A stretch of DNA of 33,803 nt, taken from IMG/VR virus record IMGVR_UViG_3300010354_000304, positions 1 to 33,803 of that record, one strand, 5' to 3'. Below the pieces are notes generated by a model. That model saw only the letters and a list, made by a program, of their open reading frames with translations, had not been told where the DNA came from and ran no database searches. The DNA is from a virus. A program made the translations under genes and the position numbers. This document shows, in pieces, positions 3,818-15,268 of the stretch (position 1 is the first letter of the stretch; each line of letters begins with the position of its first letter).

Positions 3818-3990
3818 GTTTCTAGGTCCGGTTGGTTGCGATGCTTCTTTTCTTTGACTCGAATTTCGCTGGCCAGCTGCGCTTGGATGGTGGCGCGCTT
3901 CAACATGCCTCGACGGTGTGGGTCTAGTTCATTATGAAACATAAATTTAAGATGTTTTTTCATGCGAAATGCTGCTGTGGGTTTTAACAT
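3814..3990 (-). CDS. small basic protein, 58 aa
   Basis: This frame has exact stop/start overlaps on both sides: TAATG with the gene before it and ATGA with the gene after. The 58 residues are strongly basic (MLKPTAAFRMKKHLKF at the start, VKEKKHRNQPDLET at the end) with a central amphipathic helix (RRGMLKRATIQAQLASEI). Nucleic-acid binding is plausible from charge alone, but I do not recognise a family. Confidence 0.7.
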   Translation of the reverse strand: MLKPTAAFRMKKHLKFMFHNELDPHRRGMLKRATIQAQLASEIRVKEKKHRNQPDLET

Positions 3991-4370
3991 TAACCTCTCC
4001 TCATGGTAGAAATGTCCTTGGCTTCTTGATCGCTGAAGATTGGAACCATGTTGCTTTTGTGCATGGTGCCAATGCCAACCATCTTGTCGCCAGTATAGAC
4101 TCGGGTGGGGGCTGGTGCAGTACTGCCTGCGCCAGTATCTAGACTAGGGTAACGTGGTGTCTCTCGTCCTGGCGGCGTGCCAAGTTTATAGGTGTCAGCT
4201 AGGGTGCGTTTCACACTCTTGACTTTCTTGGTAGGATGTCGTGCCAGCAGTTCATTCCAGCTGTCGTCAAGCTCACGCGCCAAGCGGGCCTGTTCGGCAT
4301 TGCGGAACTTCGGCCGACCTCGTCGTTTGCCTGTGGTGGAATACATGGGCGGTAGTAGGTGCATTGTCAT
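3990..4370 (-). CDS. conserved T4-like phage protein, 126 aa
   Basis: The start at 4370 (MTMHLLPPMYS) forms an ATGA overlap with the upstream stop. The N-terminal part is basic (TGKRRGRPKFRN), followed by a helical stretch ARLARELDDSWNELLARH. The C-terminal half has a conserved look: YPSLDTG, then VYTGDKMVGIGTMHKSNMVP and FSDQEAKDISTMRR. I recall very similar proteins of unknown function from T4-like cyanophages and pelagiphages. No catalytic motif or Cys pattern is visible, so no function is assigned. Confidence 0.75.
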   Translation of the reverse strand: MTMHLLPPMYSTTGKRRGRPKFRNAEQARLARELDDSWNELLARHPTKKVKSVKRTLADTYKLGTPPGRETPRYPSLDTGAGSTAPAPTRVYTGDKMVGIGTMHKSNMVPIFSDQEAKDISTMRRG

Positions 4371-4594
4371 AGCGGATCTCCCAGACCAGACCAATCATCG
4401 AGAAAGCGATTAACGCGATCTACGGCTTCTTCCAAACTTACTGCCCAAATGACCACGGTTATCTCGTCGTCCCGGATCTTCATATCATAGGGAACCTTGC
4501 CGCGGAAATCAAAGGTGTCAGGCAACTGTGCTGACACTTCGAACCGCTGCAGGTTCTTCATGCGATCCAGAACGCTGGAGATATCGGGCATCAT
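4367..4594 (-). CDS. conserved hypothetical phage protein, 75 aa
   Basis: This 75-residue protein has an N-terminal helix (about 4-20) and then an alternating strand pattern (FDFRGKVPYDMKIRDDEITVVIWAVSLEEAVDRVN). Similar small proteins occur beside the previous gene in T4-like marine phages, as far as I recall. Function unknown. A near-consensus promoter lies 34 bases upstream, inside the membrane-protein gene before it. Confidence 0.7.
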   Translation of the reverse strand: MMPDISSVLDRMKNLQRFEVSAQLPDTFDFRGKVPYDMKIRDDEITVVIWAVSLEEAVDRVNRFLDDWSGLGDPL

Positions 4595-4791
4595 TTTGTC
4601 TTGATGGCAGTGTTAAGGAATGCGTGAATTATAACCACTGCTGCCCAGTTTGTCAAGCTGTATTCCAATGCCAGAGCAAACAGCGAGTTCAGGGCCCAGA
4701 GCACCAGCAGTGGACCAACCAGCGCCAGGACTATGAGCAGCGCCAATATGATATACAGATTGGTTTCGGTAGCTCGGAGTTTAATCATCAT
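4591..4791 (-). CDS. small two-helix membrane protein, 66 aa
   Basis: Almost the whole protein is hydrophobic, with predicted helices at about 12-33 and 36-62 and a short basic tail (AIKTK). It starts with two Met codons; either could be used. It overlaps the next gene through ATGA, and its coding sequence contains the promoter at 4628-4656. It is a candidate for inner-membrane functions such as lysis control or superinfection exclusion, but nothing in it identifies one. Confidence 0.6.
   Translation of the reverse strand: MMIKLRATETNLYIILALLIVLALVGPLLVLWALNSLFALALEYSLTNWAAVVIIHAFLNTAIKTK
4628..4656 (-). promoter_or_regulatory. sigma70-type promoter inside a coding region
   Basis: TTGACA and TATAAT, both perfect, are 17 bases apart on the minus strand. 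They lie within the 3' half of the 66-residue membrane-protein gene and point at the 75-residue gene starting at 4594. Confidence 0.75.
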
Positions 4792-4797
4792 GGCTCC

Positions 4798-5097
4798 TTA
4801 TTGCTGACGGCACCAGAGCTGATAGCCCAGGAAATCGCCAGTTTGATTATAGGTTGCTTCGGTACGACACTGGGGCAGAGCCTGAGGCTGAGCCTGCACC
4901 GGAGGTTGCTGCATGATCACCACTGGAGGTTGTTGATACTGCACCGGCGGTCCCTTGGGTTTGCCAGCCTCATCTAGCTTCTGGTAAAGCCAGTAACCAG
5001 CAATGCCCGTGACAATGCCCTGTTCTCTGGGTCCCCAGGCCAGCGCCGGGGTGCTGATGACAGCGGCCAGCGTGGCCGCAGCGATGATGCGTTTCAT
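4798..5097 (-). CDS. exported Pro/Gln-rich protein, 99 aa
   Basis: A typical signal peptide (MKRIIAAATLAAVISTPALA) with an ALA-type cleavage site ends near residue 20. The mature part has a short conserved-looking segment (REQGIVTGIAGYWLYQKLDEAG), then a Pro/Gln-rich linker (about 49-75). It ends with two cysteines (CRTEATYNQ and LWCRQQ) that could form a disulfide in the periplasm. A GGAG-type ribosome site precedes the ATG. Function unknown. Confidence 0.7.
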   Translation of the reverse strand: MKRIIAAATLAAVISTPALAWGPREQGIVTGIAGYWLYQKLDEAGKPKGPPVQYQQPPVVIMQQPPVQAQPQALPQCRTEATYNQTGDFLGYQLWCRQQ

Positions 5098-5106
5098 GGT
5101 TGCTCC

Positions 5107-5337
5107 TTAGAAATAAAAGTTGGTGTCGAAGTTCAGCGCCTCATAGACTTCTTCGCGGACCGCGGTGTCCATGGCCTCGCCAAAATTTTCGGGATCGCTG
5201 TCAGCCAGAGCGCGCAGCTCGCTGTAGACTTCGGGCCAGGTGCTGCGGTTTTCACGCGCACGGGCCACAATGCCGGCCACGGCACGGTCGCCGGCTTCAC
5301 TGAACATCGCGAAACTCTGGAAATTATTGACAATCAT
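5107..5337 (-). CDS. hypothetical protein, 76 aa
   Basis: This acidic, mostly helical 76-residue protein has no recognised motif: helices at about 5-25 and 33-65, ending in an aromatic tail (NFDTNFYF). It has its own promoter at 5369-5397 with a leader of about 25 bases and AAGGA before the ATG. It is first in its transcription unit and likely expressed early. Confidence 0.65.
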   Translation of the reverse strand: MIVNNFQSFAMFSEAGDRAVAGIVARARENRSTWPEVYSELRALADSDPENFGEAMDTAVREEVYEALNFDTNFYF

Positions 5338-5368
5338 GATCTAGTCCTTTCTCATTCAACGTACCACT

Positions 5369-5397
5369 ATTATGACATAAAATCAGCCTGTTGTCAA
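5369..5397 (-). promoter_or_regulatory. sigma70-type promoter
   Basis: TTGACA and CATAAT are 17 bases apart on the minus strand, with the GCTTGACA extension shared by other promoters here. It lies in a true intergenic gap, directly downstream of the TCATTGA repeat copy at 5404-5426. Confidence 0.75.
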
Positions 5398-5403
5398 GCC
5401 ACT

Positions 5404-5426
5404 GCTAAGTCATTGATTTCATTGAA
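5404..5426 (+). repeat. TCATTGA-type dispersed repeat, copy 1
   Basis: This copy of a 23-bp element (core TCATTGATTTCATTGA, itself two TCATTGA units separated by TT, with GCTAAG at one end) recurs three times at 13696-13806. Positions 5410-5434 match 13760-13784 in 24 of 25 bases. It overlaps the last codons and stop of the 153-residue gene and sits seven bases upstream of a promoter -35. Confidence 0.8.
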
Positions 5427-5880
5427 CTTTTTCTGCCTGTTTTTCAGGCAGCAGCGTGGGGAACGCCTGACGCACCACAGCTTCGGTTAGACCCTTGTAG
5501 GTCTTGGCCAGAGCCTTGTCTTTAAGAGCCACCAGCATGTCGGCTTCGATGCCGTTGATGCCTTCCAGCATCTGAATGAAGACATTTTCTACCTGTATGG
5601 TTTTAATGTTGGCTGGTCGTCTAGGATGATTCTTGATTACCAAATACATGCGGCGCGACTCAGCATAGAGGTTGGTCTCGGCCATGGCCACGGGGTGTGG
5701 ACTTCGTTTGAAGGGCGGCTGGCCCTTGGGAAGATCAAATTCAATGGCTGGATCGAAATTCAATCTCAGCACTTCTTTGAGCAGGGTATTGTCCTGATGT
5801 TGTTGCAGCACGGCTACTCTGGCCCTGAGGCCGTCGGCTTCGCTGACCTTTTGCAGGATTTCTGGTACTAGTAATCTCAT
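5419..5880 (-). CDS. DUF6433-like conserved phage protein, 153 aa
   Basis: I chose the ATG at 5880 (MRLLVPEILQKV) because the longer frame runs into the preceding gene. The pattern matches a family common in T4-like marine phages, which I recall as DUF6433: an N-terminal helical region, then LKEVLRLNFDPAIEFDLPKGQPPFK (about 35-59, quoted only to its core LNFDPAIEFDLP), then an ENVFIQMLEGI stretch, a LVALKDKAL stretch and the ending GLTEAVVRQAFPTLLP. The family has no assigned function that I know. The 3' end carries a perfect stem-loop and the TCATTGA repeat. Confidence 0.75.
   Translation of the reverse strand: MRLLVPEILQKVSEADGLRARVAVLQQHQDNTLLKEVLRLNFDPAIEFDLPKGQPPFKRSPHPVAMAETNLYAESRRMYLVIKNHPRRPANIKTIQVENVFIQMLEGINGIEADMLVALKDKALAKTYKGLTEAVVRQAFPTLLPEKQAEKVQ
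5433..5451 (-). other. gene-end stem-loop without U-tract
   Basis: CTGCCTG and CAGGCAG form a perfect 7-bp stem around a five-base loop at the end of the upstream gene. On the minus strand the stem is followed by AAAAAG rather than a T run, so it is not a standard intrinsic terminator. It could stabilise or process the mRNA 3' end. Confidence 0.4.
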
Positions 5881-5881
5881 T

Positions 5882-6781
5882 TTAAAACTCCGATAGATGT
5901 TCAATCATGTTCTTCATGCGATGTTCCATGAAGTAATTCAGCAGCTGACTGCGGTCCTTGCTGGGTCGATTGCTCCAGACTTCCTGAATGCCATTGCGCA
6001 CAGCGTCAGGTATGTAGTCAAAGTCAATGAGATAGCGATTACGCTGAAAGTTGCGGGCAAGTTCGACTGGTACATGATTGTGAAACTCATCCAGAGGAAT
6101 TTTATGCCACTCGTCCAGTTTTTTCTGTGTTACTGCTTTCTGACGGCTCTCAGTAACAAAGCAATCATCAGGACTAAGAATATTTGGAATGCCGTCACCT
6201 TTGTCTCCTTTGACAATATGCTCCATGAGATAACTGTGTATGGTGCTGTCAGGTTTGACCCATTTCTTATGTATGGGGCTATACTGCTGAACATTCTTGT
6301 ATTTCTGAAGCTGGATGAAATCGTGATCTCCGCTGATGACCAAGAATGGGCGTGGAATGTTCTCACCAAAGGCTCCGTCTTGCTGCAGGTCATTGGTCTG
6401 ACTCCACTGAGCCAGCACAGCAATGACATCGTCGGCCTCGGCGCCATCGACATCAATCACAGTATAGGGAAAGAAGGTGCTGAGCTCGGCTCGAATTTCG
6501 TGCAGTGTATCAAAGATCAGCTTCCAGTCAAAGCCACTGTCCTGCCGAGCCTTTTTGCGGCTGGCCTTGTAGTAGGGAAACTTGTCTTTTCGCCAGTAGT
6601 GGCGGTTATCGCAGGCTATGACCAGCTCGCCAAATTCGCCGCCAAACTTGACCTTGTAGCTGCGTATGGCATTGATGATCATATGGCGAATCAGATCCTT
6701 GCGAATCTCCACATCGGTACGGCCTGCCAATTCTGCCATGAGCGTGGAAATAGCAGTTTGATTAAAGTCAACAACAATCAT
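5882..6781 (-). CDS. rnh: RNase H / 5'-3' exonuclease (T4 Rnh-like)
   Basis: T4 RNase H removes RNA primers from Okazaki fragments and acts as a FEN-family 5' nuclease. The length of 299 residues matches T4 Rnh (305). The acidic metal ligands are in place: D5 in VVDFNQ, D58 in IACDNRHYWR with FPYYKASRK after it, D117-D118 in GAEADDVI, D152 and D154 in ISGDHDF, and D193/D196 in GDKGDGIPN, which is the helix-hairpin-helix DNA-binding region. It is driven by a promoter embedded in the preceding deoxynucleotidase gene. It works with the ligase and primase of this window. Confidence 0.93.
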   Translation of the reverse strand: MIVVDFNQTAISTLMAELAGRTDVEIRKDLIRHMIINAIRSYKVKFGGEFGELVIACDNRHYWRKDKFPYYKASRKKARQDSGFDWKLIFDTLHEIRAELSTFFPYTVIDVDGAEADDVIAVLAQWSQTNDLQQDGAFGENIPRPFLVISGDHDFIQLQKYKNVQQYSPIHKKWVKPDSTIHSYLMEHIVKGDKGDGIPNILSPDDCFVTESRQKAVTQKKLDEWHKIPLDEFHNHVPVELARNFQRNRYLIDFDYIPDAVRNGIQEVWSNRPSKDRSQLLNYFMEHRMKNMIEHLSEF

Positions 6782-6808
6782 GATGGGTCCTAAGAAAATT
6801 ATGGTATG

Positions 6809-7330
6809 TCAATTATATATTAGGACGCTCTGGAAGTCAAGCACTGAATTCAATGCATCAATCGTTTTTTCTGCGCTGGTGTGCAGTATACCAACGCCGC
6901 CGCGCCGGCGCCATTGATCGATGACGTCGGCAGTATCATCAATCAGGATGTCGCGACGACGACAAAAGTTCTGTTTGATCCAGCGACCTGGTACTGTATT
7001 GACCTTGTAGAAGATGCCATGATCCTCACACCATTGCTGCTTGTCGGCTGTAACCCGTTCGTGATATTCAGCGCCGCCAGTGCTGGTCAGTATCTCTACA
7101 TTGATGTCCCGACTACGACGAATTTGTTCTATGAACTGCAGCAGCTCGGCGCTGCCTGGCCAGGTATCAAGCCCGGCAAAATGACCGCCAGTGCAGAAGT
7201 TGTGCCAGGCCTGGCTCTTTTTACCTTCGCGGTCACGTTTCCAATCGCCATTGAGTTCTCGATATCGAGTCATGAAGTCGCTGAGGACTCCATCCATGTC
7301 AAGATATATCGTCTGGCGTCTTGTCGTCAT
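6809..7330 (-). CDS. HAD-family 5'(3')-deoxyribonucleotidase
   Basis: The N-terminal YLDMDGVLSDF motif (about 9-19) is the HAD signature DxDG, with D11 the nucleophile and D13 the acid/base. An ILTSTGG motif (motif II) and IDDTADVIDQW (motif IV) follow. With 173 residues it fits the small deoxyribonucleotidases that dephosphorylate dNMPs or UMP. In a phage this may trim nucleotide pools alongside RNR and dCMP deaminase. The start at 7330 is preferred over an upstream TTG because AAAGAG precedes it. Its last codons contain the -35 and -10 of the RNase H promoter. Confidence 0.8.
   Translation of the reverse strand: MTTRRQTIYLDMDGVLSDFMTRYRELNGDWKRDREGKKSQAWHNFCTGGHFAGLDTWPGSAELLQFIEQIRRSRDINVEILTSTGGAEYHERVTADKQQWCEDHGIFYKVNTVPGRWIKQNFCRRRDILIDDTADVIDQWRRRGGVGILHTSAEKTIDALNSVLDFQSVLIYN
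6812..6840 (-). promoter_or_regulatory. sigma70-type promoter for rnh, inside upstream gene
   Basis: CTTGACT and a perfect TATAAT are spaced 17 bases apart on the minus strand. Both boxes are coding for the last residues of the deoxynucleotidase (VLDF and IYN). The predicted leader to the rnh ATG is about 25 bases. Confidence 0.75.
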
Positions 7331-7586
7331 GTTGTTTTTCTCTTTGTTCAAATCGTTTCTCTTGTATGGTCTTTTCCTTGAAAGTGCGGCGCGGATTGCT
7401 GCACATCAGGCATCGGGGATTGCCGCAGTTCAGTACATGATGCTTTTCTAGCCTATGAGGTTGTTGCAGACTGCGATTGCTTTCAGTAATTCCAAATTGT
7501 CGGGCAATCTTGACCTGCTTGTTGACGGCATTGTGGTCTTTGAGCAGTCTGCGGCTGTGTTTAACCTTGTCATCTTCGTGACTCAT
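7299..7586 (-). CDS. conserved Cys-motif phage protein, 95 aa
   Basis: The central motif HHVLNCGNPRCLMCSNPRRT (about 49-68) has three cysteines with CGNPxCxxC spacing plus neighbouring His residues, suggesting a small zinc site. A strongly basic, Gln-rich tail (FKEKTIQEKRFEQREKQ) follows. This pattern is common in small proteins of many marine and freshwater phages, always without known function. It overlaps the deoxynucleotidase start by 32 bases. It has a GGAG-type ribosome site after the AAA ATPase gene. Confidence 0.75.
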   Translation of the reverse strand: MSHEDDKVKHSRRLLKDHNAVNKQVKIARQFGITESNRSLQQPHRLEKHHVLNCGNPRCLMCSNPRRTFKEKTIQEKRFEQREKQHDDKTPDDIS

Positions 7587-7595
7587 GCGGTCTCC

Positions 7596-8714
7596 TTAGA
7601 AGGCATCCATGTTGTAGGGCTTGTAGCGCTGGCGAGTCAGGAACAGCTGCTGACCCTGACGGTTGCGGAACTCATACACGCCCTGCGCCGGCAGTACCTT
7701 GATTAAATCGCTGGCATCAAACATGCCGCTGGTGCGTTCGTCTTCGTCGTCATCCACGGCCACTTCCAGACCGCAGCCATCGCCATCTTCACTGCGTGAA
7801 CGATTGCGCAGTGGATCTTGCCAATGAAACCGCTCGCGTTCCATGGTCATGGGATTGCCCTGGTACTCACGGGGATGATGTACACGCACCTCACGACCCT
7901 GCACCAGTACCTTGATGTCATAGAAGGTGCCAGTATCGAATTCGGCCTTGACGTTCAGCAGCTTGACAATCTGCTGCGGTGTGTCACCATAGCGATTGAT
8001 TTCTTCCACCATGGCCTTGAGCATGTCAAAGTTGAACTCATTGAACAAACTGGCCAGCGTGCAGATGCTGTCGGTGTGATGCTGATACTGTGGCAGTAAA
8101 TTGTCAGCACAGTATTCACGAATAAAGGCTTCTTCCAGACCACGGAAGTCCAGCATGTAGTAGATGCGGCCTGGACGGTTACGCATATGACGATCCACGC
8201 GCCATTTGTCATTGCAGGTCAGCACGAACAACTTCTGCATGGGATAGACACCATCCATGAGAGTCAGTATGCTTTCCTGTTGGTCTTCGTCGTAGACCTT
8301 TTCAAACTCATCGAACAAAATCATGCAGGGTTGATCAATGTCCTGAATCAGTTTGTTAAACTGATCACCGCTCCAGGCCGAGTTGATGACAATGGTGGGT
8401 ATGCCCTGAGCCGCGCAGTTGATGCTCAGTGTACGAGCCAGCAGAGTCTTGCCCGACCCCTTCTCGCCAGTGAGCATGACGCCGGTGCTCTTGCCCCGAC
8501 GGTCCAGGAATGTATTGATGATGCGGTCGGCATTTTTAAGCGTGTCGCCGTAGACACGACCTGCGGGTTCAAAGCTATCAATCTGTTCTAGATACAGACC
8601 TTCAAAGGGATGGCTCTGTATGATGTAGTTTCCTGCAGGCAGATGCTGATGCAGGTCTATGGCGGCATTGTCGGCTACCTTGTAGGTATTGCCATTGCGA
8701 ATAAAATAAGACAT
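7596..8714 (-). CDS. AAA-family ATPase, 372 aa
   Basis: The protein has a clear AAA core. Walker A is GEKGSGKT (83-90), Walker B is MILFDEFE (131-138), sensor 1 is VLTCND (about 163-168), and arginine-finger candidates lie in RNRPGRIYYM. A helical lid domain (about 195-245) follows. The C-terminal 130 residues contain an acidic patch (AVDDDEDERTS) and a strand-rich end, and are probably specific to the phage family. AAA ATPases of this kind are frequent in T4-like marine phages. Candidate roles are remodelling of a replication or host complex, but no partner gene is evident nearby. It lies upstream of RNase H in the same direction. Confidence 0.88.
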   Translation of the reverse strand: MSYFIRNGNTYKVADNAAIDLHQHLPAGNYIIQSHPFEGLYLEQIDSFEPAGRVYGDTLKNADRIINTFLDRRGKSTGVMLTGEKGSGKTLLARTLSINCAAQGIPTIVINSAWSGDQFNKLIQDIDQPCMILFDEFEKVYDEDQQESILTLMDGVYPMQKLFVLTCNDKWRVDRHMRNRPGRIYYMLDFRGLEEAFIREYCADNLLPQYQHHTDSICTLASLFNEFNFDMLKAMVEEINRYGDTPQQIVKLLNVKAEFDTGTFYDIKVLVQGREVRVHHPREYQGNPMTMERERFHWQDPLRNRSRSEDGDGCGLEVAVDDDEDERTSGMFDASDLIKVLPAQGVYEFRNRQGQQLFLTRQRYKPYNMDAF

Positions 8715-8723
8715 CTTGTACTT

Positions 8724-9158
8724 TCAATTTACTTGGGCTTGTTTATAACGTTCCTGACGCTCGGCTTCGTGCTGATCACACAGAGTCTTGATCCAGCCTC
8801 CGCTGCGTCGTTCACCAGGCACGCCACACTCTTCACAGGTCTGGCCAGCCCAGCTTTCCGCCATGCGTACCATGCCATCAATGGTGTCATCGCCACCGTC
8901 ATAGTAGAAGCGCAGTCCGCCAAATTTTTCCTTGATCTGCGCTACCGTGACCTGCGGGCAGGCTTCGCCACGCCCATAGCGGGCATGTTGTTCGTTCTTC
9001 CAGTCCATGTGATGCTGTATCTGTCGGCATAGACTTTCAATGATGTTCCACCAGCCAGGACCAATGGCAATGCCGCCATAGGGTCGTTCAAACATGGCTG
9101 GGTGGTTTGCCTGTAGTCTGGCTACAAAGGCTTCATAATTTTCTTCAGACCAGGTCAT
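8724..9158 (-). CDS. conserved zinc-binding phage protein, 144 aa
   Basis: This is a widespread phage and prophage hypothetical protein. The N-terminal part has GIAIGPGWWNIIESLC (about 29-44), the middle the hallmark VAQIKEKFGGLRFYY (about 72-86), and the C-terminal part a likely zinc site TCEECGVPGERR followed by GWIKTLCDQHE (CxxC and CxxH). Function is unknown; DNA or RNA contact is only a guess from the zinc site. A promoter lies about 50 bases upstream inside the preceding small gene. Confidence 0.8.
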   Translation of the reverse strand: MTWSEENYEAFVARLQANHPAMFERPYGGIAIGPGWWNIIESLCRQIQHHMDWKNEQHARYGRGEACPQVTVAQIKEKFGGLRFYYDGGDDTIDGMVRMAESWAGQTCEECGVPGERRSGGWIKTLCDQHEAERQERYKQAQVN

Positions 9159-9291
9159 ATAACTTCTCCAGGATAAAACTCAACAATAAAACTACTACAA
9201 TCCACTCCATGATAGTAAATTGTCGGATAAAAGTCAAGACGCCAGGAGCCTTTTTGTACAGCCAAAAGTTGAATCTGTCAACATAGTTCAT
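9145..9291 (-). CDS. small membrane protein, 48 aa
   Basis: The start forms ATGA with the stop of the preceding gene, and the end overlaps the next gene by 14 bases. The 48 residues have an aromatic/basic N-terminal amphipathic part (MNYVDRFNFWLYKK) and one hydrophobic helix at about 28-45 (EWIVVVLLLSFIL). Its coding sequence also holds the promoter at 9209-9237. Function unknown; it is one of several tiny membrane proteins in the accessory region. Confidence 0.65.
   Translation of the reverse strand: MNYVDRFNFWLYKKAPGVLTFIRQFTIMEWIVVVLLLSFILEKLYDLV
9209..9237 (-). promoter_or_regulatory. sigma70-type promoter inside a small gene
   Basis: CTTGACT and TATCAT lie 17 bases apart on the minus strand. 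The site is inside the 48-residue membrane-protein gene, about 50 bases before the ATG at 9158. Confidence 0.6.
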
Positions 9292-9668
9292 GAAAACTCC
9301 CTGCTGGTAAATGCGTAGCCGTCGGCGTCATCCCAGTCATATTCTTCGTTGAACCAGGGACGACTATCTTGACGACCCTGCTCATTGTGCTGCAGATTTT
9401 TGCGACCATCTTCTCTGACAAAGTCAGGCGACTTCCAGGTCTCAATCATTCCAACAAAGTCGTCGTAGTCAATTAGGTCGCCGTATTCGTCGACTATGGT
9501 CTGGCTCTGCAGGAATTCCTTCCAGGCACGCCAGCTGGTCAGACGCTCGGCACGATATCCCTGAAATGTAAACGCCCAGCCATGCGAACTTTTGCCGATG
9601 TGATATTCCTCGTCGTAGCGCTCGCAGCAGTCACAGCGGTTCTTGGCGACATAGTAATTGGTGCCCAT
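9288..9668 (-). CDS. conserved phage protein (MGTNYY family), 126 aa
   Basis: The N-terminus MGTNYYVAKNRCDCCERY with CxCC-type cysteines, followed by HIGKSSHGWAFTFQG (about 22-36), is the signature of a hypothetical protein family common in phages and some bacteria. The C-terminal part is acidic (EEYDWDDADGYAF). I know no experimentally defined function; a metal site from the N-terminal cysteines and His is likely. It is flanked by very small membrane proteins on both sides. Confidence 0.8.
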   Translation of the reverse strand: MGTNYYVAKNRCDCCERYDEEYHIGKSSHGWAFTFQGYRAERLTSWRAWKEFLQSQTIVDEYGDLIDYDDFVGMIETWKSPDFVREDGRKNLQHNEQGRQDSRPWFNEEYDWDDADGYAFTSREFS

Positions 9669-9671
9669 GAT

Positions 9672-9725
9672 TTAACTCCGTAGTACCCAGGCCAGCATGA
9701 CCAGTATTATCATAAACCAAAACAT
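9672..9725 (-). CDS. possible 17-residue hydrophobic peptide
   Basis: A short frame encodes MFWFMIILVMLAWVLRS. It starts through a TAATG overlap with the preceding gene and has GGAG eight bases upstream. It fills the gap before the next gene, which is a position typical of real phage genes. It would be a single membrane helix. It is too short to be sure; chance is the main alternative. Confidence 0.35.
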   Translation of the reverse strand: MFWFMIILVMLAWVLRS

Positions 9726-9958
9726 TATTTGACTCCGAAATGTTCTAGAATTGCTGCGGCATAATACGTTGGTCTTTTGTCTATTTCAAGACCGACCTTG
9801 CGTTCAATGGCATTGTCATACATCACCTTTACGCATTCACGAACAATCAGCTGGGCGAACTTTGACTCAAATGCTTCAGACCAAGTAGGCTCGCCTCTGA
9901 AGTTATCGTCGGCATACTTTTCAGCCTGTTCCGAAAGTTCTCGAATTCGTTCGTTCAT
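9725..9958 (-). CDS. conserved hypothetical phage protein, 77 aa
   Basis: This charged helical protein follows a pattern seen in many phages: NERIRELSEQAEKYADDN at the start, then FESKFAQLIVRECVKVM (about 29-45), and an end like ILEHFGVK. It may be a small regulatory or DNA-associated protein, but no function is known to me. It starts by ATGA overlap with the preceding gene. Confidence 0.75.
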   Translation of the reverse strand: MNERIRELSEQAEKYADDNFRGEPTWSEAFESKFAQLIVRECVKVMYDNAIERKVGLEIDKRPTYYAAAILEHFGVK

Positions 9959-10134
9959 TCTGCCTCCTTAAACAGTGGCACACCATCAGTCAAATGCTTA
10001 ACATATTCCAAATCGGGGAAAGTGTCAAGTGTGCCACGGTGCCGCTGAACCGTCAAGTTACCCTCACGCATAATAGCATAGAAAAACTGGTCAGTGGCAC
10101 CTTGTTCAATCTGTTTTGCAAAATATTCGTTCAT
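9955..10134 (-). CDS. hypothetical protein, 59 aa
   Basis: Both ends use ATGA overlaps, which supports this 59-residue frame. The protein is soluble and charged (MNEYFAKQIEQGATDQFFY at the start). Its middle codons form the promoter at 10000-10028. No family recognised. Confidence 0.65.
   Translation of the reverse strand: MNEYFAKQIEQGATDQFFYAIMREGNLTVQRHRGTLDTFPDLEYVKHLTDGVPLFKEAE
10000..10028 (-). promoter_or_regulatory. sigma70-type promoter inside a small gene
   Basis: CTTGACA and TATGTT are 17 bases apart on the minus strand, within the 59-residue gene. It would transcribe the 77-residue gene at 9958 and those after it. The -10 is weaker than in its sister sites. Confidence 0.55.
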
Positions 10135-11225
10135 AGCACCCTCAGCAGTAAAGTATCTTCATTGATGCGACCATTGAGCCGGGTCTCGGTTGTGGTTAGA
10201 TCTGTCAGCACCTTTCTCAGCGCCACCTTGCCTGCGGTCAGCATCTTGGGAATCACCACATCGGGTTTACGCAGGGTGCGCTGCACACTGGTGTCAGGAT
10301 CCCAGCCCTGCAGGCTGGTGCCCTTGACGCTGAATCCTGCTGGACCCGTGGCATTGTAGACACCCAGCTTCTTGTTCTTGATGTTATACACCCACAACTG
10401 CTGCGCACCCACGATGCTGGTCACCGCCACACTCTTGAGTGCTTCATGCTCCTTCAAATACTTCAGCCGGGCTACCTGCTGACCCGCAGGCTTGGCCTTT
10501 TTAACCCGCACCTTGCGATTGGCTTTCTTGAAGTTGGCATATCTGGCAGCATCTTCCATGAGTGTCGTCAAGAACTCTTTGAATGCTTTTACATCACGCT
10601 TGCCCAGATGACGCCAGGCTTCGGTTACCTGCGCATCAGTGCCAATCAATTCCAGTTCAGCCATCAGTCGCTCACAGATGGGAGCCACGCCGCTGAGATA
10701 GGGCTTGGCGACATTGTGCGACTGACAGTACTTGAACAGGTCGTAACCAGTAGGCTTAAAGGCATTAGCAATAAAATTATCAATCTCGCCATCTATGGCT
10801 TCTCCCAGAAACTCGGCCTGCTTTTCTGCCATGGCATCCTGAATGCTACGACGCGTAGTCACCGGTGCTGCCTGAGCCACGGGTTCTTCCATCACTGCCC
10901 GACTCAGCACATCACGCAGATGCTGCTCAAAACGTTGATCAGTGTCGGTGTCGAACACTGTGCCATTGGTCTTCATTCTGGCAATCCAGCCAAAGGTAGT
11001 GGCAAAGTCCGCAGGACGAACCTGAGTCCAGCGCCGCGCCTCGGCTGGCCAGTTTTTCTTGATCCAGGCGTGTGCATAGGCCAGGGCGTCTTTTTTGTCT
11101 TTCTCGTAGTTGTACCAGTTCATGGCTCGCATGAAAGCCGAACGATTTTCATGATTGTCCAGCAGTTCAGGCCTGGGCTCAGCACCGCTGACCTTTTCCA
11201 TGATCTTGTCAACACGATTAGACAT
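10131..11225 (-). CDS. conserved T4-like phage protein, 364 aa
   Basis: Of unknown function, but it resembles a large hypothetical protein I recall from T4-like marine phages. The N-terminal region has NRSAFMRAMNWYNYEKDKKD (about 27-46) and AHAWIKKNWP (about 52-61). The middle is helical (about 110-235), followed by a very basic stretch (KKANRKVRVKKAKPAGQQ, about 233-250). The C-terminal third is strand-rich with LWVYNIKNKKLGVY and VKGTSLQGWD. The basic linker and lack of any signal peptide suggest a cytoplasmic DNA- or RNA-contacting protein. It overlaps the WYL_2-like gene before it by eight bases. Confidence 0.8.
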   Translation of the reverse strand: MSNRVDKIMEKVSGAEPRPELLDNHENRSAFMRAMNWYNYEKDKKDALAYAHAWIKKNWPAEARRWTQVRPADFATTFGWIARMKTNGTVFDTDTDQRFEQHLRDVLSRAVMEEPVAQAAPVTTRRSIQDAMAEKQAEFLGEAIDGEIDNFIANAFKPTGYDLFKYCQSHNVAKPYLSGVAPICERLMAELELIGTDAQVTEAWRHLGKRDVKAFKEFLTTLMEDAARYANFKKANRKVRVKKAKPAGQQVARLKYLKEHEALKSVAVTSIVGAQQLWVYNIKNKKLGVYNATGPAGFSVKGTSLQGWDPDTSVQRTLRKPDVVIPKMLTAGKVALRKVLTDLTTTETRLNGRINEDTLLLRVL

Positions 11226-11550
11226 GCAGTTCTCCTAGATTAAAACTGAACTCACGAATGCTGTCGAAACGAAAACTACGCCAGTCCTGCTTGTCCAGAT
11301 CCCAGACCACCAGCGCTTCTTCAGAACGCTTGCGTGGATTGGCTTCTTCTTTCTGCAGTTTCTCTGCAGGAATCAGCTCGGGATGTAAACTACAGTGCAT
11401 GTGACGCAGTGTACCATCGGCCTTGACAAAACTGACATTGACTCGTTCACTGCGAACAACTCCGTGAAACCATTCACGAAAGGCCTGACGCTCAGCAGCA
11501 TCGGCCTGGCCATACCAATTACCACTCCAGTTATTAAATTCAAAATTCAC
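11218..11550 (-). CDS. WYL_2-like SH3-type small protein, 110 aa
   Basis: The start is GTG, in phase with GAATTTTGAA and with GGAGCAATC upstream. The middle reads VNVSFVKADGTLRHMHCSLHPELIP (core FVKADGTLRHMHCSL at about 40-55). The end has VVWDLDKQDWRSFRFDSI, the pattern of the WYL_2/Sm-like SH3 fold family common in T4-like phages. That family is thought to bind nucleic acid or ligands, but the phage role is not established. It overlaps its neighbours on both sides. Confidence 0.75.
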   Translation of the reverse strand: MNFEFNNWSGNWYGQADAAERQAFREWFHGVVRSERVNVSFVKADGTLRHMHCSLHPELIPAEKLQKEEANPRKRSEEALVVWDLDKQDWRSFRFDSIREFSFNLGELHV

Positions 11551-11713
11551 GATTGCTCCTATTCATTGCATTAACACCGCTGTGAGCCAGCAGCAGACCT
11601 GCCATAGCCAACAGTCCCTGTAGTACCACACTGGCATTGGGATCATAGTCCAGGGTGCCAACAGCACCAAAGGCTATGAGAAAACCAACTACGATACGAA
11701 TCGAACCCTTCAT
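11540..11713 (-). CDS. small two-helix membrane protein, 57 aa
   Basis: This 57-residue frame joins the preceding gene through an ATGA-type overlap and runs eleven bases into the WYL_2-like gene. Two hydrophobic segments are visible at about 5-20 (IRIVVGFLIAFGAVG) and 28-44 (VVLQGLLAMAGLLLAHS), separated by an acidic turn (LDYDPNA). A hairpin in the inner membrane is likely. No function is recognised. Confidence 0.6.
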   Translation of the reverse strand: MKGSIRIVVGFLIAFGAVGTLDYDPNASVVLQGLLAMAGLLLAHSGVNAMNRSNREF

Positions 11714-11940
11714 AGATACCTTTCACAGATGTGACGCTTGGCATCACGAACATTTTTAAACTTTACATCACCAATTGTAATGGATCTTCCAGCAATTGTC
11801 AAGCAGAAATCATCGTTTTGATGAACATAGATCTTCTTGCCACTGACCACACTCTTGGAGAAGTTGTTGTTGTAGCCTGCAAAGAACAGCGTATCGGCCA
11901 ACTCTTCTCGATGCTGCAGAGCTATGAAGGCATCATTCAT
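11710..11940 (-). CDS. hypothetical protein, 76 aa
   Basis: The protein is 76 residues with an N-terminal helix and a strand-rich C-terminal half (KKIYVHQNDDFCLTIAGRSI, then IGDVKFKNVRDAKRHI), which suggests a small beta-sandwich or SH3-like fold. I do not recognise a family. It starts by ATGA overlap with the preceding gene, and the promoter at 11774-11802 is embedded in it. Confidence 0.65.
   Translation of the reverse strand: MNDAFIALQHREELADTLFFAGYNNNFSKSVVSGKKIYVHQNDDFCLTIAGRSITIGDVKFKNVRDAKRHICERYL
11774..11802 (-). promoter_or_regulatory. sigma70-type promoter inside coding region
   Basis: GCTTGACA and TACAAT are 17 bases apart on the minus strand within the 76-residue gene. It would transcribe the two-helix membrane protein, the WYL_2-like gene and the 364-residue gene. 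Confidence 0.65.
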
Positions 11941-12230
11941 TGTAGTCTGAACCTTTGCAAAACCGAACTGGCCTGAGGATAGGGATTGACATCATCCTGC
12001 ACACTCTCCATGATCTCATCTAATTGGGCCATGAGCACTAGACGAATCAGCAGATCGACCTGATGTTGATCAAACTCACTGAGCGTAGACTGCCAGTTTT
12101 CCAATTCTTCTAATTCACGAAACTGCCACATACAATCCAACAGGGCCACCTGACGCCGACTCAGACCGTCGATGGTCAGTCCAGGCTCACGACTCTGCCC
12201 CAGCTTCCTCTTGCTTGAAAAGCCCGTCAT
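11937..12230 (-). CDS. conserved hypothetical phage protein, 97 aa
   Basis: This acidic helical protein has a pattern common in phages: LSRRQVALLDCMWQFRELEE (about 23-42) followed by WQSTLSEFDQHQVDLLIRLV (about 46-65) and QLDEIMESVQDD. It is probably an all-helical cytoplasmic protein. No function known. It is linked to both neighbours by ATGA overlaps. Confidence 0.75.
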   Translation of the reverse strand: MTGFSSKRKLGQSREPGLTIDGLSRRQVALLDCMWQFRELEELENWQSTLSEFDQHQVDLLIRLVLMAQLDEIMESVQDDVNPYPQASSVLQRFRLQ

Positions 12231-12355
12231 TTTGCCACCTCTCGGACTACATGTTGGATTTTAGTTACTCCGTTGTCGGCCAGGTGAGCCAGTTTACTGA
12301 ATCCCACAGTAGTGGCCGCCACGCCTAGAATGAAACCTATGATTAAGTTACCCAT
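12227..12355 (-). CDS. small membrane-associated protein, 42 aa
   Basis: The 42 residues begin with a hydrophobic Gly-rich helix (MGNLIIGFILGVAATTVGFS) and end in an amphipathic helix (NGVTKIQHVVREVAK). Very similar short proteins are frequent in phages, and none has a known role to my knowledge. The start overlaps the preceding gene by eight bases and the stop overlaps the next ATG as ATGA, so the frame is well supported despite its length. Confidence 0.7.
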   Translation of the reverse strand: MGNLIIGFILGVAATTVGFSKLAHLADNGVTKIQHVVREVAK

Positions 12356-12581
12356 AGTTTTTACGATCTCCGAATTGTTCGTTCCACTCATAGCCTGCCA
12401 TGTAGGCAGTAATTTCTTCGAGTGTCATGTCCTTGCCAGCTACCCGAGCCGACATACCAGTGCCACCGACATAGTAGTGAGGGTCGACTCCGCGCCCATA
12501 GTAATTATCGGCACTGCCACGGTCAAAAGGTCCACCATGGCGGTTGTCATAGGTCTTGCCATTGAAGGTTCCGTAGTCCAT
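12348..12581 (-). CDS. conserved phage protein, 77 aa
   Basis: This family is recognisable by FDRGSADNYYGRGVDPHYY (about 19-37) and then DMTLEEITAYMAGYEWN (about 51-67). It is widespread in phages that also carry the NIDTLEAG-type protein found just upstream. Rich in Tyr, Gly and Asp, with no catalytic motif. Function unknown. A GAGATAGAC leader precedes the ATG. Confidence 0.75.
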   Translation of the reverse strand: MDYGTFNGKTYDNRHGGPFDRGSADNYYGRGVDPHYYVGGTGMSARVAGKDMTLEEITAYMAGYEWNEQFGDRKNYG

Positions 12582-12591
12582 GTCTATCTCC

Positions 12592-12933
12592 TCAATCTAA
12601 ACGGCTACCGGCATAGGCCGTGAATCCACGTTTCTTGAATACCGCGGCGGCGGCTTCGGCGCCAGCCTCCAGCGTGTCGATGTTCTGCACCAGCATGGCA
12701 CTGGGATTCCAGAGCTGGAAACTCTTGGTGTAGCTGCGACGCAGACCTGCCTGGGTCAACATACGACCCATTTTGGTATTGCCCTTGACACCATAGATGT
12801 CTACCCAGGCAAAGCCGCAGCACGGTTGGTCCTGCCCCTTGAGTTTTTCCTGAAAGAATTTCATGGCAGCTTGATAGGCTGCTTCACGAGCCTCGGCAAC
12901 AATGCCGTCAATTGCTTCTTGATCGTATCCCAT
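12592..12933 (-). CDS. conserved phage protein (GFAWV/AGSRLD family), 113 aa
   Basis: The landmarks are QPCCGFAWVDIYGVKGNTKM (about 36-55), SFQLWNPSAMLVQNIDTLEAG (in two blocks, FQLWNPS and QNIDTLEAGAEAA) and the terminal GFTAYAGSRLD. This is a very common hypothetical protein of tailed phages. Sequence conservation is high in my memory, but no function has been shown. It precedes the 77-residue protein, which is its usual neighbour type. Confidence 0.8.
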   Translation of the reverse strand: MGYDQEAIDGIVAEAREAAYQAAMKFFQEKLKGQDQPCCGFAWVDIYGVKGNTKMGRMLTQAGLRRSYTKSFQLWNPSAMLVQNIDTLEAGAEAAAAVFKKRGFTAYAGSRLD

Positions 12934-13289
12934 TATACAGTCTCCTTCATGAAGTCATCATAGTTAATACGCTTGGCGGGGAATTGAATATCACCGTCAA
13001 ACTCCAGCTGGTCCTTCTCGAACTGAGTTTGAAAATCATCCTCGACAAAGCTCCAGCCGATGATGTACTCTTCAGCATAGTCAGATCGGTATTCGATCTT
13101 GTCACGCATGGAGTCCACAATCATCTGGCCTTTCTTGTCGGCAAACTCGTCGCCGAAACGGAACCCATCCACCTCGACGATGATTTCATCGCCGCCTTTG
13201 AACTTCCAGTACTGAGGGCACTCACCTACACCGTCCCAATCGTGGGCGCCATAGTTTTCTTTGTACTGGGTCTCAATTAGAATTCGCAT
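12933..13289 (-). CDS. conserved phage protein (RILIETQYKENYG family), 118 aa
   Basis: The start is one of two adjacent ATG codons. I choose 13289 because GGAG then lies seven bases away. The N-terminus RILIETQYKENYGAHDWDG with PQYWKFKGGDEIIV is a known conserved phage pattern. The remainder is acidic and ends in a DFMKETV tail. Function unknown. It has its own promoter with a leader of about 25 bases. Confidence 0.78.
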   Translation of the reverse strand: MRILIETQYKENYGAHDWDGVGECPQYWKFKGGDEIIVEVDGFRFGDEFADKKGQMIVDSMRDKIEYRSDYAEEYIIGWSFVEDDFQTQFEKDQLEFDGDIQFPAKRINYDDFMKETV

Positions 13290-13320
13290 CATCAAACTCC
13301 TTTTCACTTTCGATGCCACC

Positions 13321-13349
13321 ATTGTAGCACCATTTCATCATTTTGTCAA
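13321..13349 (-). promoter_or_regulatory. sigma70-type promoter
   Basis: GCTTGACA and TACAAT are 17 bases apart on the minus strand. The -35 encodes the last residues of the GIY-YIG-type gene upstream, and the -10 is in the short intergenic gap. Confidence 0.7.
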
Positions 13350-13655
13350 GCCCGTATGATTCAGACTGAATTGGTTGGTTGCTATCATGCTGCGCTCCAA
13401 TTCATGGGCTGCTTGCTTGCCTCGAACCACGGCATAGATGCCATAGGTGTGGTTCTCGGTGCCATACTGGACTATACTGTTGCAGAGATCCCAGCCCTTG
13501 TCTTCATTAAAAGCTCTCCAGATGTGCTTCTGCACTCGGACCAGCAGATGCTTCTTGCTATAGCCTGCTGTGATGCCCACATATTTCTGACCCGTCACCG
13601 TATTGGTGAGGATGTATACTATATGTCGACGGTCTGAACGCTTTTTTCTCATCAT
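13338..13655 (-). CDS. GIY-YIG-type nuclease-like protein, 105 aa
   Basis: The N-terminal pattern HIVYILTNTVTGQKYVGIT (about 10-28) fits the degenerate GIY-YIG core with its two conserved Tyr and following Gly. Later residues include an Arg/Lys-rich helix (KKHLLVRVQKHIWRAF) and an ERSMIATNQ stretch near the end, where the catalytic Glu is expected. GIY-YIG proteins cleave DNA as homing or repair nucleases. It is short (105 residues), so it is probably only the catalytic domain, with no clear DNA-binding module. The -10 of its promoter ends six bases before the ATG with no ribosome site. Alternative: an inactive relative with another role. Confidence 0.65.
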   Translation of the reverse strand: MMRKKRSDRRHIVYILTNTVTGQKYVGITAGYSKKHLLVRVQKHIWRAFNEDKGWDLCNSIVQYGTENHTYGIYAVVRGKQAAHELERSMIATNQFSLNHTGLTK

Positions 13656-13661
13656 ACTTAT

Positions 13662-13689
13662 ATTATAGCACCTTGCACCAAAAGGTCAA
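13662..13689 (-). promoter_or_regulatory. sigma70-type promoter next to repeat cluster
   Basis: GCTTGACC and a perfect TATAAT are 16 bases apart on the minus strand, one base shorter than the rest. The TCATTGA repeat copy at 13696-13723 is immediately upstream. The TATAAT is followed by ATAAGT and then ATG. Confidence 0.7.
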
Positions 13690-13695
13690 GCACTA

Positions 13696-13723
13696 TTTTC
13701 TTCAATGAAATCAATGACTTAGC
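13696..13723 (-). repeat. TCATTGA-type repeat, copy 2
   Basis: This is a 28-bp sequence identical to 13779-13806. In minus orientation it begins GCTAAG and contains TCATTGATTTCATTGA, followed by AGAAAA. It lies seven bases upstream of the promoter -35. Confidence 0.85.
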
Positions 13724-13759
13724 TCACGATTTCACGGGGCGTTTCGGGGGTGTTGTAAC

Positions 13760-13784
13760 TCATTGATTTCATTGGACTTTTTCT
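13760..13784 (+). repeat. TCATTGA-type repeat, inverted copy 3
   Basis: The 25 bases match copy 1 near 5.4 kb (5410-5434) in all but one position, but stand opposite in orientation to copies 2 and 4. Together with copy 4 it can fold into a 15-bp perfect stem with an 11-base loop. Confidence 0.8.
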
Positions 13785-13806
13785 TCAATGAAATCAATGA
13801 CTTAGC
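13779..13806 (-). repeat. TCATTGA-type repeat, copy 4
   Basis: Identical over 28 bases to copy 2 and in the same orientation. It starts just after the stem-loop at the end of the coiled-coil membrane protein gene. Confidence 0.85.
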
Positions 13807-13810
13807 AGAA

Positions 13811-13829
13811 CTGTCTAGTTTTTAGACAG
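13811..13829 (-). other. gene-end stem-loop without U-tract
   Basis: CTGTCTA and TAGACAG make a 7-bp stem with a five-base loop. It contains the TAG stop of the 353-residue gene. No T run follows on the minus strand, so intrinsic termination is unlikely. Its size and position mirror the stem-loop at 5433-5451 next to repeat copy 1. Confidence 0.4.
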
Positions 13830-14876
13830 CGGCTGGCCGTCGACATCAAATCCAGCCTGCTGACGCATCATGCGCTGGGTCTGTGGATGTGGATGCACGG
13901 GCGCATCTGGGTGAGGCTTCTTGAATACCCGATCCAGTATCTCGGGTGGGATGCGGTGTACATCCTTCTTGTGTAGTTTGATCTCGTGTTCATCTACCTC
14001 GGGTTCCAGTTCTTCATACTGGAATACCTCGGGATGGTCAGGAGCTGCACTGGTGGGTGGTGCTGCTGCGGTCCAGACTGGCATTGGTGTTGTTTCTTTG
14101 CGCTGGGTCACAGCAGTTAGTACACGCTGTCGTTCCATCAAGCTCATGTTGCCGGCAATGACCAGCAGAATGGCCATGGGATCGAATACAAAGATTAGAC
14201 TCATGATGATTAGACGCACTGCCTTGCCAATCATGTCTTCAGTACTGTCGCCGTAGATTAGTTCGGCAACATACTTTATGGGGCCAACCTCGGCTTCGAT
14301 CTTGCGGACATCCTGTGCGATTGGCGCACGCTCCTCATTAAGCTGGCCAATAGTTTTCTGGTAGGCCTGGATTTCCGTCTGTAGGCGATCACGCTCTTTC
14401 TGTTGGCTGCGCCGAATACTAACTGCCCTTTCCGCACCTTTTTCTGTGTCACTGCGACCCATGACCTGATCCACAGCCTCATCGAGCTGTTTAAGCGCCC
14501 GGCGATTGGCATCAATGTTCTCCCTCTGTGTACGAATCTTTTCGTCAATAATGGATAGCTGGCCAACACTCTGGCCCGTAACCGCGGCCTGATCTAGATG
14601 TGCTTTCGATAGATAACCAAAAATACCCAGACTCGTAATGATGCTAAGAATAATAACTGCGGCAGTAAAATAATAGCGGAGGATATGAGGAGCGGTACGC
14701 CAATTGCGGTATATCCAGCTCGCTGCAACCAATTTTGCAAGTTCAAGACTGCCTCCCATGAGTCCTGTAGCCAAGGGTGCACTGCTGAAGATGCTGATCA
14801 GTCCAGCCACGCTGAACCAGGCAGCACAGGCGCTGACCGCAAAGGCGCTGAGAAACAGCAGTGCTATGAATATCAT
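13815..14876 (-). CDS. multi-pass membrane protein with coiled coil, 353 aa
   Basis: Three hydrophobic segments occur at about 3-30, 33-52 and 68-90. A long charged helical coiled coil (about 105-198, with repeats of Glu, Gln, Arg, Lys) follows, then a fourth membrane segment at about 221-243. The C-terminal 110 residues are cytoplasmic-type, Pro/Glu/His-rich (HPDAPVHPHPQTQ). I recall coil-containing membrane proteins of this build in T4-like marine phages; none has a known function. The position between two GIY-YIG-type genes is unusual. A role in superinfection exclusion, lysis control or host envelope modification would be guesswork. Confidence 0.75.
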   Translation of the reverse strand: MIFIALLFLSAFAVSACAAWFSVAGLISIFSSAPLATGLMGGSLELAKLVAASWIYRNWRTAPHILRYYFTAAVIILSIITSLGIFGYLSKAHLDQAAVTGQSVGQLSIIDEKIRTQRENIDANRRALKQLDEAVDQVMGRSDTEKGAERAVSIRRSQQKERDRLQTEIQAYQKTIGQLNEERAPIAQDVRKIEAEVGPIKYVAELIYGDSTEDMIGKAVRLIIMSLIFVFDPMAILLVIAGNMSLMERQRVLTAVTQRKETTPMPVWTAAAPPTSAAPDHPEVFQYEELEPEVDEHEIKLHKKDVHRIPPEILDRVFKKPHPDAPVHPHPQTQRMMRQQAGFDVDGQPLSKN

Positions 14877-15268
14877 GTTTTTAAATGTTTACGGTGTACA
14901 CGACAAATTATCCAGCTATTGTAGAATTCAGTAGGACGGCGCAGTACGTCGTGTTCAAACTGAGCCTTGGCTTCCTGATAGGTACATTCACCTTTGTTGC
15001 CGCACAAGTATAGTATTTCTCGGTTAAAGTTGTCAATGCCGGATTTTTCGATGTCGGCCAGCAGCTCGTCATTGCTGCCCCAGTAGTCGCGCCAGTCACT
15101 TTCGGCCAGATAGCGTTTCTTCTTGCCTTTAACCTGGCGAGTCTTTTTGAACCAGAACAGCTTCTTGCCAATGTAACGTCGTCCTGTGACAAGATTGGTG
15201 ATGATGTACACAAAACCATAGTGTTCGGCGGCTGGCTCGACAAATTCAGATCCTTGATAGGTCCACAT
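14873..15268 (-). CDS. GIY-YIG-like endonuclease (Seg-like), 131 aa
   Basis: The motif GFVYIITNLVTGRRYIGKKLFW (core VYIITNLVTGRRYIGKK at about 20-36) is a clear GIY-YIG pattern. It is followed by a basic stretch (KTRQVKGKKKRY), ESDWRDYWGSNDELLADI (about 55-72) and NFNREILYLC with the catalytic-type Glu (about 80-89). Close relatives are annotated in marine T4-like phages as putative endonucleases. Such genes can be homing nucleases that act against related phages, or tame DNA-processing enzymes. It ends by ATGA overlap with the membrane-protein gene. AGGAG precedes its ATG. Confidence 0.8.
   Translation of the reverse strand: MWTYQGSEFVEPAAEHYGFVYIITNLVTGRRYIGKKLFWFKKTRQVKGKKKRYLAESDWRDYWGSNDELLADIEKSGIDNFNREILYLCGNKGECTYQEAKAQFEHDVLRRPTEFYNSWIICRVHRKHLKT

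Follow-up and report, generated by a model that had tools for sequence, protein, structure and literature searches.

A dispersed repeat of a T4-type phage resembles host IHF sites placed upstream of sigma-70-type promoters

The TCATTGA-doublet element of the 33,803-nt window (the whole stretch of virus DNA analysed, IMG/VR record IMGVR_UViG_3300010354_000304) is most likely a site for host IHF, rather than for a phage repressor or initiator, because it combines an IHF core with an A-tract, turns up in unrelated phages as well as in genomes of Pseudomonadota, and stands in phase with promoters. We assign a probability of roughly 0.7 to the reading that it is a high-quality IHF site that the phage has positioned ahead of strong sigma-70 promoters; the putative IHF binding is here inferred from sequence. 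The source record is a 33.8-kb virus fragment. The presence of T4-type genes supports its assignment to a T4-type phage, and megablast of positions 1-20000 of the window against isolate phages gave no matches.

Four copies of the element were found in the window, all of them non-coding (Table 1). The 21-nt motif TTCAATGNWATCAANNNNTTA had three exact matches and one with a single mismatch, while 1000 Markov-1 simulations of the window gave means of 0.000 exact matches and 0.004 matches at ≤1 mismatch, and the observed number was reached in none of them (0/1000). The repeat is thus real, as the sequence-only reading had proposed, and the identity of copies 2 and 4 over 28 bp (13696-13723 and 13779-13806) and the lack of further full copies in the window, judged by motif search, were likewise borne out. 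The same reading had matched copy 1 to inverted copy 3 at 24 of 25 positions, which was a mistake: the match, at 25/25 positions, is to inverted copy 4, and copies 1 and 3 agree at 27 of 29 positions in the same plus-strand orientation. On the minus strand, the order previously described, from a gene end with a 7-bp hairpin through the element(s) to a promoter, holds at both loci; at the window's remaining strong promoters, nothing similar to the element turned up. The Pfam GIY-YIG score of the homing-endonuclease-like gene was below the cut-off of that profile, and in relatives, the 76-aa gene and the one that follows DUF6433 vary in position.

Table 1. Positions of the IHF-type sites and neighbouring features in the window.
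Feature	Position	Strand	Basis or remark
76-aa gene behind IHF-linked promoter	5107..5337	-	in relatives, homologues come after GIY-YIG gene
Sigma-70-type promoter TTGACA-17-CATAAT, TG before -10	5369..5397	-	11/12 matches
IHF-type site, copy 1 (TTCAATGAAATCAATGACTTA)	5406..5426	-	exact TTCAATGNWATCAANNNNTTA match; bend centre ~5419, -35 22 bp downstream
Upstream gene, DUF6433 / phrog_461	5419..5904	-	stop codon falls inside copy 1
A-tract (A5 on minus strand) 5' of copy 1's IHF core	5428..5432	-	sequence; register as lambda attP H' A-tract
7-bp hairpin CTGCCTG-N5-CAGGCAG, last codons of upstream gene	5433..5451	.	sequence
GIY-YIG homing-endonuclease-like gene, 105 aa, behind IHF-linked promoter	13338..13655	-	PHROG 5123, E 5e-9
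Sigma-70-type promoter TTGACC-16-TATAAT, TG before -10	13662..13689	-	11/12 matches
IHF-type site, copy 2, promoter-proximal	13701..13721	+	exact motif; bend centre ~13708, 19 bp upstream of -35
IHF-type site, copy 3 (TCCAATGAAATCAATGAGTTA), left arm of head-to-head pair	13756..13776	-	1 mismatch; pair analysis
T5/A5 tract common to copies 3 and 4	13778..13782	.	sequence; A5-A6 or T5-T7 in relatives' pairs
IHF-type site, copy 4, right arm of head-to-head pair	13784..13804	+	exact motif; pair analysis
7-bp hairpin CTGTCTA-N5-TAGACAG, upstream gene end	13811..13829	.	sequence
Upstream gene, 353 aa, no function assigned	13815..14876	-	related sequences in many phage contigs

Read on the opposite strand, the element is TTCAATGA-AATCAATGACTTA, in which AATCAATGACTTA fits the IHF consensus WATCAANNNNTTR (as quoted in PMC7581858) perfectly and an A-tract lies upstream, as is usual for IHF sites. 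All four copies matched this 13-bp core, as AATCAATGACTTA or AATCAATGAGTTA, with an A/T-rich 5' element ca. 10-14 bp upstream of it (A5/T5 at copies 1, 3 and 4; ATTTT at copy 2). The TCATTGA doublet has a period of 9 bp, equal to the distance between the two kinks in the IHF-H' structure. When the same core was applied to lambda attP and to the Mu early region, three sites and one site were obtained, respectively, falling in places known for IHF sites, and the lambda H' A-tract stands in the same register relative to the core as that of the element. In the element-bearing phage contigs, non-coding core sites other than the exact element occurred at 4.89 per 10 kb as against 1.10 for the reversed control (4.4-fold), and the frequency of A at -14 to -10 of these additional sites was 0.53-0.64.

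The spacing between element and promoter, examined across relatives and other phages, showed fixed distance peaks. Among 42 promoter clusters (≤75 bp), the bend centre lay 18-23 bp from the -35 in 16 and 28-32 bp in 12 (many loci were retrieved for containing the element, so the counts are no random sample), and it was upstream of the -35 at these distances in both site orientations. The 18-23 bp peak was significant (16/42, p=1.3e-7); 26 of the 42 clusters fall outside it, and periodicity beyond it had modest support (p ~0.04). A reversed-pattern control gave 13 elements and no promoter pairs, compared with 380 elements and 71 promoter pairs for the true pattern. It is nevertheless conceivable, if unlikely, that the sites bind IHF for DNA architecture (topological insulation, packaging or replication) and not for activation, and that they lie near promoters only because intergenic space is scarce. 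IHF acts as an architectural protein at lambda att and cos, and some sites have no sigma-70 promoter close by: they adjoin tRNA halves (L009, L073) or, in Yersinia phage AP10, a T7-class promoter at its right end, or they lie in plasmid arrays. Several head-to-head pairs stood 54-55 bp or more from the -35. The two tight distances, kept when the site is flipped, are however not expected from shared intergenic space alone.

The expectation that the element be conserved at homologous places held in part, as close relatives keep it at both loci and more distant relatives are without it. In L222 and L223, the site is retained at the homologous locus with its orientation flipped. The promoter is present without the element in L224 (66% identity in the upstream gene), in L528 (a GIY-YIG relative, 71%) and in most more distant relatives, and thus the element is not essential. 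A protein-only search found an IHF-like site in 7 of 45 distinct upstream regions, and the notion that all GIY-YIG homologues have the element was dropped.

The exact 20-mer was found in at least 119 other IMG/VR stretches, and the reversed 20-mer in none. It was also present in 85 stretches of GTDB species genomes, ca. 80 of which bear Pseudomonadota titles; IHF is found in this group, and on these titles the carriers are largely IHF-bearing bacteria or their phages. Cultured T4-type phages with sites of this kind include Aeromonas phages Aeh1 and Ah1. Three cyanophage relatives had no match with fewer than 2 mismatches, and the element was absent from Methylophilales phage Melnitz and Pelagibacter phage Mosig, which are among the nearest isolates by protein. 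A concern raised at the outset, that many copies might lie at random in genes, was not supported: ORFs of ≥100 aa contained 14 of 94 phage copies, compared with 76.5% of random positions. Host chromosomes were poor in the element: of 150 genomes from the order to which G001 belongs, only 7 had the degenerate pattern. The density in phages was far higher, so that the element characterises chiefly phages and mobile elements rather than host promoters. Copies in host genomes showed no phasing to promoters. In the literature searched, no relevant paper contained the string ATCAATGACTTA.

That another protein's site (of a phage regulator, an integrase at its arm site, or HU) resembles that of IHF by chance appears distinctly improbable. 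The 5' half TTCAATGA shows greater specification here than in lambda and Mu sites, which match it at 0-2 of 8 positions, the 5' part of IHF sites being without obvious pattern (PMC7581858), and some copies adjoin tRNA halves, as attachment sites do. A phage regulator, however, would not be expected to spread over unrelated phages with GC of 0.31-0.62 and hosts of several classes, and the core with its A-tract fits IHF exactly. Moreover, none of the nine phage records searched encodes an HU/IHF homologue, and a tyrosine integrase (PF00589), which an attP arm or core site would call for in the same phage, was absent from the window record (a fragment), its 167-kb relative and seven other records.

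Copies 3 and 4 are paired head to head, with a T5 tract common to both between them, and the arms of such pairs in relatives are 7-8 bp apart. The 15-bp stem noted earlier (13760-13774 and 13786-13800) is present, but it is the head-to-head overlap of these copies and no separate element. In 13 head-to-head pairs, the arms differ mainly at positions 0, 1, 7, 8 and 14-17 and never at CAA/TCAA, that is, almost only at positions to which IHF is indifferent. Tail-to-tail and direct pairs had no preferred spacing comparable to that of head-to-head pairs. The head-to-head pair probably acts as a unit. The view that the inverted copies make a hairpin in RNA or DNA (a terminator or mRNA stabiliser) and not protein sites, to which the 15-bp pairing of copies 3 and 4 and the true hairpins nearby lend some colour, is barely tenable, since single copies are far commoner than pairs and the complementarity of the arms is not kept in the 13 pairs, which differ at NN/W and NNNN around an invariant CAA/TCAA; an RNA hairpin was rejected because the arms differ at IHF-neutral positions. 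A replication-origin iteron or an enhancer particular to this phage, as the three-copy cluster at 13.7 kb might suggest, has next to no likelihood, given the same element at promoters of unrelated phages and at several loci in one genome (five places in G171, eight copies in G009); the iteron or origin was rejected on its inverted or dispersed copies, a GC-skew profile that has no switch at 13.7 kb, where an origin had been suspected, and the absence of the element from many relatives. Among the functions first offered, a protein-binding site of enhancer type thus survives, and the phage-specific operator, iteron and origin element do not.

In the RIP/RIB (IHF-containing BIME) elements of E. 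coli, an IHF site lies near gene-end hairpins. The present sites are similarly close to hairpins at gene ends, but no REP sequences were recognised and the IHF site stands in phase with a promoter. T4-type phages reportedly carry promoter-early stem-loop cassettes, or PeSLs, their description being ascribed to Arbiol 2010 and Comeau 2014. The window loci are intergenic, belong to a T4-type phage and have a stem-loop followed by an early-type promoter, as PeSLs do. As known from PMC4503421, PeSLs share with these loci the succession of gene end, stem-loop, strong early-type promoter and small accessory gene, and possibly the shuffling of neighbouring genes between loci (here among relatives); the window loci differ in having a putative IHF site between stem-loop and promoter. 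The IHF sites of lambda attP (H1, H2 and H') and the Mu early region resemble the element in core consensus, A-tract register, 9-bp kink spacing and use by phages. Their 5' half is patternless (PMC7581858), whereas TTCAATGA is conserved here, and the present elements occur in T4-superfamily phages, in integrase-less records and phased to sigma-70 promoters. The Correia repeat enclosed elements of Neisseria (PMC2649163) are also non-coding repeats that combine inverted repeats, an IHF site and sigma-70 promoters, but they measure ca. 70-157 bp with terminal inverted repeats, and here there are no unit boundaries beyond the IHF site.

If the element is an IHF site, a single IHF heterodimer would span the A-tract together with TTCAATGA and AATCAATGACTTA, and the DNA would be kinked at two TCAA steps 9 bp apart. 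The resulting sharp bend, ca. 20 bp upstream of the -35 and roughly at position -56, would increase transcription of the accessory gene that follows the promoter, either by folding DNA from further upstream against RNA polymerase or by clearing away silencing proteins. As copies 3 and 4 face each other across one A/T tract, IHF could dock there in either direction or as two neighbouring dimers. The effect of IHF would be activation rather than repression; IHF near promoters can also repress, as at the Correia element of mtrCDE (PMC2649163).

These observations suggest, without proving it, that promoters of lytic phages are driven with the help of a DNA-bending protein of the host. A wider proposal, which we hold tentatively and at somewhat under even odds, is that lytic phages of many families have converged on an extended, near-optimal IHF site (A-tract, TTCAATGA and AATCAATGACTTA) as a portable promoter enhancer, deployed either singly, in constant helical phase, or as two sites facing head to head across a common A-tract, so that the host nucleoid protein would be a general activator of lytic transcription and an IHF site can have a specified 5' half. 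The conserved 5' half would give an IHF search motif sharper than WATCAANNNNTTR alone. In phages, IHF is best known for attachment, packaging and transposition of temperate phages. Should optimised IHF sites indeed stand at a fixed phase before the promoters of lytic T4-type and jumbo phages, host nucleoid proteins would join the lytic programme, and the level of IHF could alter infection.

The gene content of the window, a virus record of 33,803 bases, is that of a T4-superfamily phage, with nearly all genes on the minus strand; by RNase H, its nearest isolates are the Methylophilales phage Melnitz and Kyanoviridae cyanophages of Synechococcus (44-47% identity). The sequence-only reading had described a four-copy repeat, which proved genuine and far above chance in number; on the opposite strand the element is TTCAATGAAATCAATGACTTAGC, usually preceded by A5. 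The minus-strand order proposed in that reading was also seen at both loci, where a gene end with a 7-bp hairpin is followed by the element(s) and then by a strong sigma-70-type promoter with TG preceding the -10. Copy 1 had been matched to inverted copy 3, wrongly, as it is identical to inverted copy 4 (25/25). The reported 15-bp stem between copies 3 and 4 is present, but it is a head-to-head pair formed by these copies facing each other across a common T5 tract.

Features of the window
Feature	Positions	Strand
DUF6433 gene	5419-5904	
RNase H gene	5882-6781	
SegE-type GIY-YIG gene	14873-15268	
NrdA gene	20775-22571	
Copy 1	5406-5426	-
Copy 2	13701-13721	+
Copy 3	13756-13776	-
Copy 4	13784-13804	+

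The exact 20-mer TAAGTCATTGATTTCATTGA was present in at least 119 IMG/VR stretches from contigs with a GC content of 0.31 to 0.62, whose flanks were unrelated except in small groups of related contigs, while its reversed letters, used as a control, gave no IMG/VR stretch. In the GTDB set (one genome per species), it occurred in 85 stretches, about 80 of them Pseudomonadota by title, chiefly Burkholderiales and Comamonadaceae. Phage copies lay outside ORFs far beyond chance, with 14 of 94 falling within an ORF of at least 100 aa versus 76.5% for random positions. Close variants were found in isolate phages, including the T4-type Aeromonas phages Ah1 and Aeh1, Stenotrophomonas phage DLP_6, Caulobacter phage CcrRogue, and the T7-like Yersinia phage AP10. 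Ah1 (107891/108071; L498) and Aeh1 (120033/120203; L521) each have two IHF-type sites, 170-180 bp apart, in the intergenic region between gp26 and gp54, and the AP10 element (L501 1001-1024) closely precedes a T7-class promoter at the right end of the genome. Elsewhere, a tRNA 3' half is directly adjoined by the element in an attachment-site-like manner (L009 3064-3083 and L073 6885-6904), and Acidovorax plasmid pACP3.1 (L502, record 212180-213857) carries a 63-bp direct-repeat array in two blocks, with CCCAATGAAATCAATGACTTAGC or a close variant in every unit and a tyrosine recombinase gene nearby.

The TCAATGA doublet repeats with a period of 9 bp, and the two kinks of DNA in the IHF-DNA structure are 9 bp apart. 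When run on lambda attP and on the early region of Mu, the core search returned the IHF sites expected there, and the A-tract of lambda H' has the same register as that of the element. PMC7581858 quotes WATCAANNNNTTR as the consensus for IHF, and AATCAATGACTTA of the element agrees with it. In the non-coding DNA of element-bearing phage contigs, further core sites, the exact element being excluded, reached 4.4 times the density of the reversed control. These sites showed the A-tract and a preference for C at -6, with TGAC in the free NNNN. Neither an HU/IHF homologue (PF00216) nor a tyrosine integrase (PF00589) was found in nine phage records searched, including those of the window and of G171, a 167-kb relative, while control genomes matched. 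Since these records hold no HU/IHF homologue, the host's IHF is the likely ligand.

For distances to promoters, the bend centre was taken as the point midway between the two TCAA steps, and the other end as the start of any -35 that had a good partner -10 (at least 10/12 matches); promoters with at least 70% similarity were merged into clusters. Among 42 clusters within 75 bp of the bend centre, 16 lay at 18-23 bp (p=1.3e-7 versus uniform), none at 24-27 bp, and 12 at 28-32 bp; past the 18-23 bp peak, the signal for periodicity is no more than suggestive (p about 0.04). Both site orientations were found, mostly at 19-20 with the A-tract side nearest the promoter and at 22-23 with the TTA end nearest, so that the bend position is nearly equal either way; the promoter-proximal sites of the window lie at 22 (copy 1) and 19 (copy 2). 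The real pattern gave 71 promoter pairs from 380 elements versus none from 13 elements of the reversed pattern. Many loci were chosen for containing the element, and the counts should be read accordingly; the reversed-pattern and protein-selected-locus controls are free of that selection. In the 51.5-kb phage contig G009 (L219-L221), all eight IHF-type sites lie on the same strand, and most of them are preceded by a common AACCCCTAAAAC-like flank leading into an opposite-strand promoter.

At the locus of copy 1, relatives L222 and L223 (upstream gene 91% and 67% identical) retain one site before the promoter, flipped, and L224 (66%) has the promoter without a site. At the locus of copies 2-4, all close relatives found via the upstream gene (L249-L256, L299) have the element pair between gene end and promoter, except L251, which has one site and a degenerate partner; more distant relatives with other downstream genes have no element there. 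In a separate GIY-YIG protein search, the promoter was mostly 34-35 nt ahead of the start codon and just 7 of the 45 distinct upstream regions contained an IHF-like site; in three divergent ones (L554, L556, and L557) the core site is exactly 22 bp from the -35. The site is thus an extra that a strong promoter may or may not carry, its placement in those three regions obeying the phasing rule. Genes have also been relocated between the two IHF-linked promoter loci: a 76-aa gene (5107-5337) follows DUF6433 in the window but the GIY-YIG gene in L299, L251, and L255.

A scan for two half-degenerate sites at most 32 bp apart showed both cores complete in 8/8 distinct head-to-head pairs with a gap of 11-12 bp and in 1/20 at other gaps. 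In 13 pairs, the 21-nt arms are separated by 7-9 bp, nearly always A5-A6 or T5-T7; large phages G012 and G013 contain a similar pair. The inverted copies could be read as a hairpin, but the arms differ mainly at IHF-neutral positions (0, 1, 7, 8, and 14-17), with CAA and TCAA identical throughout, a pattern that speaks for two putative protein sites and against a hairpin.

The best reading is that an IHF-induced bend centred near -56 would aid RNA polymerase at phage promoters; we infer the binding, the direction of the effect, and cooperativity within the pair. IHF near a promoter can also reduce transcription, as at a Correia element (PMC2649163); the IHF footprint is expected to leave the -35 uncovered, which favours activation over repression. 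Already known are IHF sites, the exploitation of IHF by phages, and the stem-loop/promoter cassettes of T4-type phages. As far as the literature searched shows, the head-to-head pair with its shared tract is new, as is the extended IHF-type site as a recurrent, phased promoter partner in phages without integrases.
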